A stretch of DNA of 64,000 nt from Paenibacillus sp. GP183 (lineage in GTDB: Bacteria; Bacillota; Bacilli; Paenibacillales; NBRC-103111), in the NCBI RefSeq assembly GCF_900104695.1, contig NZ_FNSW01000001.1, positions 2,976,001 to 3,040,000 on the forward strand, given 5' to 3'. Shown in pieces: positions 11,634-12,849 of the stretch. A program made the position numbers and the translations under genes. The notes under the pieces were generated by a model that made no database searches, was not told the DNA's origin, and was given only the letters and a program-made list of their open reading frames with translations. Position 1 is the stretch's first letter. Every line of letters starts with the position of its first letter.

Positions 11634-12163
11634 CAGCATTTATGCACCTTGTTGCATGGACATCGGCAGATAACGTGAAATCAGGTGCATTTATGCACCT
11701 TGCATCGCGGATTACCGCGGGTCCCGTGAAACCAAGTGCATTTCTGCACTTGAACTACATCCTACCAGGCTCGACGCGCCTATGTGGTGCATTTCTGCAC
11801 CTTGTTGCATGGACATCGGCAGATACCGTGAAATCAGGTGCATTTATGCACCTTGCTTCGCGGATTACCGCGGGTCCCGTGAAACCAAGTGCATTTCTGC
11901 ACTTGAACTACATCCTACCAGGCTCGACGCGCCTATGTGGTGCATTTCTGCACCTTGTTGCATGGACATCGGCGGATACCGTGAAATCAGGTGCATTTAT
12001 GCACCTTGCTTCGCGAATTACCGCGGGTCCCGTGAAACCAAGTGGAGTTTCTGCACCTTATTACGTGGATATCGGTGGATACCGTGTAATCAAGTGCATT
12101 TCTGCACCTTGGGCTAATTCCTTCTGGGCCAGCAACTGTCTATGTGGTGCATTTCTGCTCCTT
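11634..12163. repeat. Tandem array phased at 51 bp, grouped into 153-bp higher-order units
   Basis: About eleven copies of a GTGCA-TTTA/C-TGCAC inverted repeat (often with AGG...CCT flanks, 7-bp arms) recur at a fixed 51-base step. The cores begin at 11685, 11736, 11787, 11838, 11889, 11940 and 11991, then a degenerate copy at 12042 and copies at 12094 and 12147; a degraded copy lies at 11634. The 31-37 bases between cores are of three alternating types, so three steps form a nearly identical 153-bp unit (11634-11786, 11787-11939, 11940-12092). Because 51 is divisible by three, a long open frame runs through the array; it is not treated as a gene. The array lies in the gap between the ydcC-like gene and the nuclease gene; 11485-11633 holds nothing else I can name. 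Confidence 0.9.
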
Positions 12164-12174
12164 AGCCCCCCACT

Positions 12175-12849
12175 TCACCAAACCCAATCATCCGTAAACG
12201 AGCGCACGAATTCGTACCGGTTCACTTTAGTTTCCTTACCCGACAAGATGGGCCGGAATTTCCCCTTCTTACAAAGGGATTTCAAGCAGAGTACGGCAGT
12301 CCGACGATTGATATCAAGTTCCTTGACTAAATCTACCGGTCGAACAGGTTTGCCCAGACGAAGAACTATAGACAGCGTTTCACGCTCCAAGCGTGTATAT
12401 CTCTGATCTCGCAAACTCGCAGCCATATAAGGTGATAATAATGACTTTAACAAATTAATCGACAGCATGGGTTTCGACTCCAAATTGTCATAAGGAATCG
12501 AAACGACACGAAATCCTAATATTTGTAAAAATGTCTCCCTGTCTAACTCATGACGGTAACGAATCCGGTCTGTTTGTTGAACATGGGGACCAAAACCTTT
12601 CACCTCCATCGCAAATTTACACATTCCTGGCAGCCACGCGAAGTCGATAAAATAGGGTCTTCCCCGCCAATCTGCAACTTCATATTCGGGATGCAAATCG
12701 TCCAAATTGCCAAATATGGACCACCAGACACGCTCTAAAAACAATCTTTCTCCATGACCATGCCCCCGCTCCAATCGGCTCCTGCGCTCCCCGGACCTGC
12801 GCTGAATATGGTACTCCAACCATTTTGTATGCTCTTCAGAAAAACCCAT
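12175..12849 (-). CDS. Stand-alone PD-(D/E)XK-like nuclease with C-terminal HTH
   Basis: 224 residues of no family I can name firmly. The central part reads like a restriction-endonuclease fold (DUF559-like): HPEYEVADWRGRPYFIDFAW supplies a strand with Asp, and AMEVKGFGPH supplies the E-x-K pair, followed by ILGFRVVSIPYDNL. The C-terminal third (about 150-205) resembles a winged helix-turn-helix: VDLVKELDINRRTAVLCLKSLCKKG. The N-terminus is highly basic (RRSGERRSRLERGHGHG). AGGAGGG lies about eight bases before the ATG. The gene ends about a dozen bases from the 51-bp repeat array, so array and nuclease may be functionally linked; that link is inference. Confidence 0.7.
   Translation of the reverse strand: MGFSEEHTKWLEYHIQRRSGERRSRLERGHGHGERLFLERVWWSIFGNLDDLHPEYEVADWRGRPYFIDFAWLPGMCKFAMEVKGFGPHVQQTDRIRYRHELDRETFLQILGFRVVSIPYDNLESKPMLSINLLKSLLSPYMAASLRDQRYTRLERETLSIVLRLGKPVRPVDLVKELDINRRTAVLCLKSLCKKGKFRPILSGKETKVNRYEFVRSFTDDWVW

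Follow-up and report, generated by a model that had tools for sequence, protein, structure and literature searches.

A family of predicted PD-(D/E)XK nucleases encoded beside private, regularly spaced inverted DNA repeats in Paenibacillus and its relatives

In REPtrons, which pair REP/REPIN repeats with RAYT (TnpA-REP) transposases, a dedicated enzyme gene lies beside palindromic repeats whose copies are dispersed between genes, and enzyme and repeat co-evolve (PMC3733652, PMC8266576). RAYTs are HUH tyrosine transposases that act on folded single-stranded REPs, which they are thought to disperse. Regularly spaced palindromes are found in other settings as well: E. coli BIMEs contain palindromes in alternating orientation (PMC2817692), although these palindromes are REPs and to our knowledge have no PD-(D/E)XK partner, and CRISPR arrays place regularly spaced palindromic repeats beside a nuclease gene. 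MITEs such as bcr1 or RUP (PMC3733652) appear likewise to be short, non-coding, dispersed and intergenic. Here, we describe a family of predicted nucleases whose genes lie directly beside a precisely spaced set of inverted repeats that differs for each enzyme and is also scattered through the same genome. We found no published description of this pairing in the open-access literature, a search that did not extend to most subscription journals or to bioRxiv preprints.

We analyzed a 64,000-nucleotide stretch of the Paenibacillus sp. GP183 genome (GCF_900104695.1, contig NZ_FNSW01000001.1, positions 2976001-3040000), hereafter the window. A sequence-only reading had proposed that a stand-alone nuclease gene and an adjacent palindrome array form a linked system with a fixed binding site rather than an adaptive array, and had called the link pure inference. 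We confirmed the gene and the array, which comprise the following features (window coordinates).

12175-12849, minus strand: gene of the 224-aa predicted PD-(D/E)XK and winged-helix nuclease
12424-12849, minus strand: N-terminal helices and predicted PD-(D/E)XK core (residues 1-142), with D69 at 12643-12645, E82 at 12604-12606, K84 at 12598-12600 and H89 at 12583-12585
12208-12402, minus strand: predicted C-terminal MarR-like winged-helix domain (residues 150-214)
11634-12163, no strand: array of 11 palindromic sites at 51-bp pitch (9 good, 2 degenerate), directly 3' of the nuclease gene
11634-11647, no strand: degenerate terminal half-site (CAGCATTTATGCAC region), read by eye
11683-11700, no strand: good site 1, AGGTGCATTTATGCACCT
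11734-11751, no strand: good site 2, AAGTGCATTTCTGCACTT
11785-11802, no strand: good site 3, TGGTGCATTTCTGCACCT
11836-11853, no strand: good site 4
11887-11904, no strand: good site 5
11938-11955, no strand: good site 6
11989-12006, no strand: good site 7
12042-12056, no strand: degenerate site GTGGAGTTTCTGCAC, read by eye
12092-12109, no strand: good site 8
12145-12162, no strand: good site 9 (one mismatch, GTGCATTTCTGCTCC), nearest to the stop codon
11636-12056, no strand: 153-bp higher-order repeat (2.7 copies)

The good sites share the core GTGCA-TTT[C/A]-TGCAC and the array follows a strict 51-bp pitch, with one 52- and one 53-bp step; the last site ends about 11 bp from the stop codon. 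Three different 37-bp spacers recur in fixed order, giving the 153-bp unit (TRF score 791). Because 51 bp is 17 codons, a 254-codon open frame (11642-12406, plus strand) runs through the array and ends antisense to the nuclease gene; it is probably a by-product of the period.

Searches of Pfam, NCBIfam and PADLOC returned no match above cut-off for the window protein, and in Pfam it has no hit even at E 1. Its relatives give weak DUF559, MTES_1575, RAP and wHTH hits, with 8 and 7 of 15 relatives matching DUF559 and MTES_1575, respectively (best E 1.2e-4 and 1.6e-5). AlphaFold2 modeling on an alignment of 103 homologues yielded a confident prediction (pLDDT 87.9) consisting of three helices, three strands, a helix and a strand, with an alpha-beta-beta-beta-alpha-beta core of the PD-(D/E)XK (Vsr/I-Bth0305I-like) type, and then a C-terminal winged helix. 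Foldseek searches returned the R2 retrotransposon endonuclease, the I-Bth0305I catalytic domain (3r3p; TM normalised to target 0.63, E 0.018), NGO0050 (3hrl, 0.69), DUF559-type nucleases and, for the C-terminus, MarR-type regulators, although these are fold resemblances of modest E-value (best 1.9e-3). D69 and H89 are invariant in 103 of 103 homologues, as are W42, E55, D60, R104 and D121; E82 is kept in 102, and residue 84 is K in 78 and D in 16. The catalytic centre therefore looks intact. Vsr-like/EDxHD homing endonucleases such as I-Bth0305I share this catalytic fold; the proteins studied here are chromosomal and have a MarR-like winged helix and a cognate repeat, and no intron or homing site was seen. 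Proteins with open frames of about 755-780 codons in other Bacillota (loci L276-L282) match the nuclease core at E about 1e-11 to 1e-6 and are possibly distant domain relatives.

We next asked whether the linkage of gene and repeat extends beyond the window. Homologues occur in 41 of 60 relatives, with up to 11 per genome, and at least 590 stretches in a species-level genome collection encode one. Tandem-repeat searching of their 3' flanks returned 50-53-bp periods at 33 of 146 genes, against 5 in 5' flanks, with many different palindromes. Similarly, the centres of hairpins with stems of 7 or more fall 50-53 bp apart 55 times in 3' flanks, once in 5' flanks and never in distal control flanks. 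Tandem repeats of other kinds, with 41-, 371- and 36-bp units, also lie beside some of these genes (locus L003, 378-745; L052, 4056-5466; L047, 2002-2383), and one 51-bp-period array (locus L005, 2158-2451) contains only a weak palindrome (GAGCAATTGTGCAGG), perhaps a decaying or shifted site.

Inspection of the 3' flanks of paralogues revealed that the widespread form is an element of four imperfect palindromes spaced 51-62-51 bp, sometimes with the stop codon inside the first. A scored search found this form, or the uniform-51 form, at 73 of 133 3' flanks, 9 of 140 5' flanks, 1 of 127 distal flanks and 0 of 133 shuffles; although the threshold was chosen after seeing the data, the controls used the same one. 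About 49 of 134 homologues have no element detectable at our threshold, so the link is family-wide but not universal. A scan of other spacings gave a clear maximum at 51/62 (47 flanks) and 51/51 (32), with all others at 15 or fewer. The centres of sites 1-2 are A-rich (AAACC) and those of sites 3-4 T-rich (GGTTT), so the two halves are inverted relative to one another, and 51 and 62 bp are close to 5 and 6 turns of B-DNA. A homologue from another class of the phylum (locus L275) obeys the same rule, with spacings of 52-63-51. In the protein tree, uniform-51 arrays fall mainly in one clade that contains the window gene (27 of 39 rows, support 100/99), while the 51-62-51 form is spread over the deeper branches, which makes the window array a derived expansion. 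These results support the linked system and fixed site proposed from sequence alone, with two corrections: the GTGCA-TTTM-TGCAC sequence is not what is conserved, since each nuclease has its own palindrome and the spacing is the conserved part, and the canonical form is the four-site element. A self-marking function, also raised in that reading, was not supported.

Half-site similarity tracks protein similarity (Mantel r 0.466, 0 of 2000 permutations), and the three paralogues in this genome have three different half-sites: AAGTGCA/AGGTGCA, AGATGYA and ACAGTGTA. Each half-site also marks dispersed copies. AGATGYA-N5-TRCATCT occurs 26 times in this genome and 0-1 times in each of 60 relatives, and the third type (AACANTGYA) occurs 6 times versus 0. 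The window type (GTGCA) occurs 21 times here and 75 times in P. psychroresistens, the only other genome of the set in which we saw a nuclease carrying that palindrome; other genomes are near background, except one (G016) that has its own phased elements and another (G059) whose 15 sites are unspaced chance matches. All 15 AGATGYA loci examined, 14 dispersed and one beside its nuclease gene, are complete four-site elements (51/52-61/63-51/52), essentially all intergenic and most of them downstream of a gene, based on mechanically called ORFs. In one intergenic region (locus L034, 3105-3490; contig positions 3063404-3063789), a window-type array and an AGATGYA-type element lie back to back, so two nuclease types share an insertion place.

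Several properties of these sites indicate that the site is most likely double-stranded DNA. In the 15 AGATGYA elements the arms are 82% identical but the spacers only 38-42% (shuffled 32-33%), while spacer lengths are fixed at 32-33, 42-44 and 32-33 bp; weak shared AT-rich segments (AATTTT, GATTTTC) near the sites, within otherwise random spacers, are possible bending tracts. The two arms of a site vary independently, with 339 standard pairs against 344.7 expected, and at the variable sixth pair C-G is if anything avoided (Fisher p 0.02). Over 44 four-site elements, own-site pairing is below the dealt expectation (1160 vs 1187 +- 10.6), although detection favoured pairing. Mismatch types show no strand bias (68 G-T vs 81 A-C), albeit in a set that includes noisy arrays; the relaxed search that produced it picks up chance chains of four and was not used to count loci.

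We also found evidence of movement. Between fmt and rsmB this genome has a three-site window-type array where most relatives have a short or unrelated gap, and in one other genome (G021, locus L212) a different palindromic element, apparently of another half-site type, sits at the same junction. In P. plantarum, 12 copies of a block of roughly 300-400 bp, joining terminator-like hairpins to a four-site element (loci L252-L263), are about 90% identical with unrelated flanks, indicating recent dispersal. In the sister species P. qinlingensis, one of six tested places lacks the block altogether, two carry it and one carries a shorter, strongly diverged element, with two others not resolved. The P. 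plantarum block is longer than the four-site element, so something else could be moving it. Element ends are not sharp, and no convincing target-site duplication was found, with repeats of only up to 4 bp in the 15 AGATGYA elements (mean 1.9 vs control 1.2) and an empty site that is locally diverged.

Taken together, these data lead us to favour, with moderate confidence and in the absence of binding or cleavage data, a nuclease-repeat pair that propagates its repeat. In this model, the protein binds double-stranded inverted half-sites, most likely as a dimer through its winged helix. In the ancestral form, four such sites on one face of the DNA, with sites 1-2 facing sites 3-4, would allow four dimers to assemble into one symmetric complex that positions or activates the PD-(D/E)XK domains. 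Cleavage at or near the element, followed by repair from another copy, would spread the element to new intergenic places in trans and expand arrays, which in the window's clade gave long tandem 51-bp arrays. Binding is strongly suggested by the specificity data and cutting by the conserved catalytic residues, whereas the proposal that cutting drives dispersal is inference. It is about as likely as not that these proteins represent an undescribed class of enzyme-repeat system, in which winged-helix PD-(D/E)XK nucleases, each with a private duplex half-site arranged as a four-dimer, helically phased element, copy that element across the chromosome in trans.

In logic this system resembles a REPtron, in that a cognate repeat lies beside the gene and is dispersed between genes. 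It differs in the two defining molecular features we tested: fold and sequence are those of a PD-(D/E)XK plus winged-helix protein rather than an HUH tyrosine transposase, and the arms show no hairpin co-variation. It further differs in its four phased sites and in the presence of several private pairs in one genome. In contrast to a transposon or MITE, the gene is not enclosed by element ends, as the element lies only on the 3' side and 5' flanks are near background, and its internal structure is four inverted sites in helical phase. A CRISPR array is rejected, since spacers recur within the array, copies are dispersed, and no Cas-like ORF was recognized by eye among the neighbours.

The main rival, which we consider unlikely but not excluded, is a domesticated host function in which the protein and its dispersed phased sites organise or insulate the chromosome or protect gene 3' ends, cutting is conditional or vestigial, and copies are kept by selection on the host. 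Consistent with this, copies are intergenic and mostly downstream of genes, and spacers have diverged to near random while arms and spacing persist, meaning that most copies are old. The window locus itself also seems vertically inherited across families: L001, L006 and L045 lie beside the same lipoprotein gene and branch in nested order, with the nuclease genes in two other families branching just outside the window clade. However, element numbers and positions turn over between species, half-sites change between relatives, and up to 11 paralogues occur per genome, with private sites where compared. Autoregulation alone, with dispersed copies forming a small regulon or hitchhiking, is improbable: the MarR-type winged helix and immediately adjacent sites are compatible with it, but the sites are 3' of the gene rather than at the promoter, the 14 dispersed complete elements lie mostly at gene 3' ends, and the nuclease residues are invariant. 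We regard an RNA or single-stranded DNA hairpin system, RAYT-like or CRISPR-like, as very unlikely; the sites are palindromic and lie where the mRNA 3' end would be, and there is weak profile resemblance to RAP domains, but the pairing data largely refute this reading and the spacing is fixed although spacer sequences are near random. A defence module using the elements as decoys or self-marks is equally doubtful, as the stand-alone, patchy and multi-copy nature of the nuclease is offset by only weak PADLOC hits in a few relatives, no homologue in 50,697 phage records, and no defence-like partner among the neighbouring ORFs. Coincidence of a common gene family with common repeats is refuted by the flank, shuffle, spacing and cross-genome controls.

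With up to 11 copies per genome across the Paenibacillales and private repeats that obey a near base-pair-exact ruler, this system would provide a non-HUH route to bacterial repeat families, a natural series of nuclease-specificity pairs inside single genomes, and a way to ask directly whether such repeat populations are selfish or serve the host.
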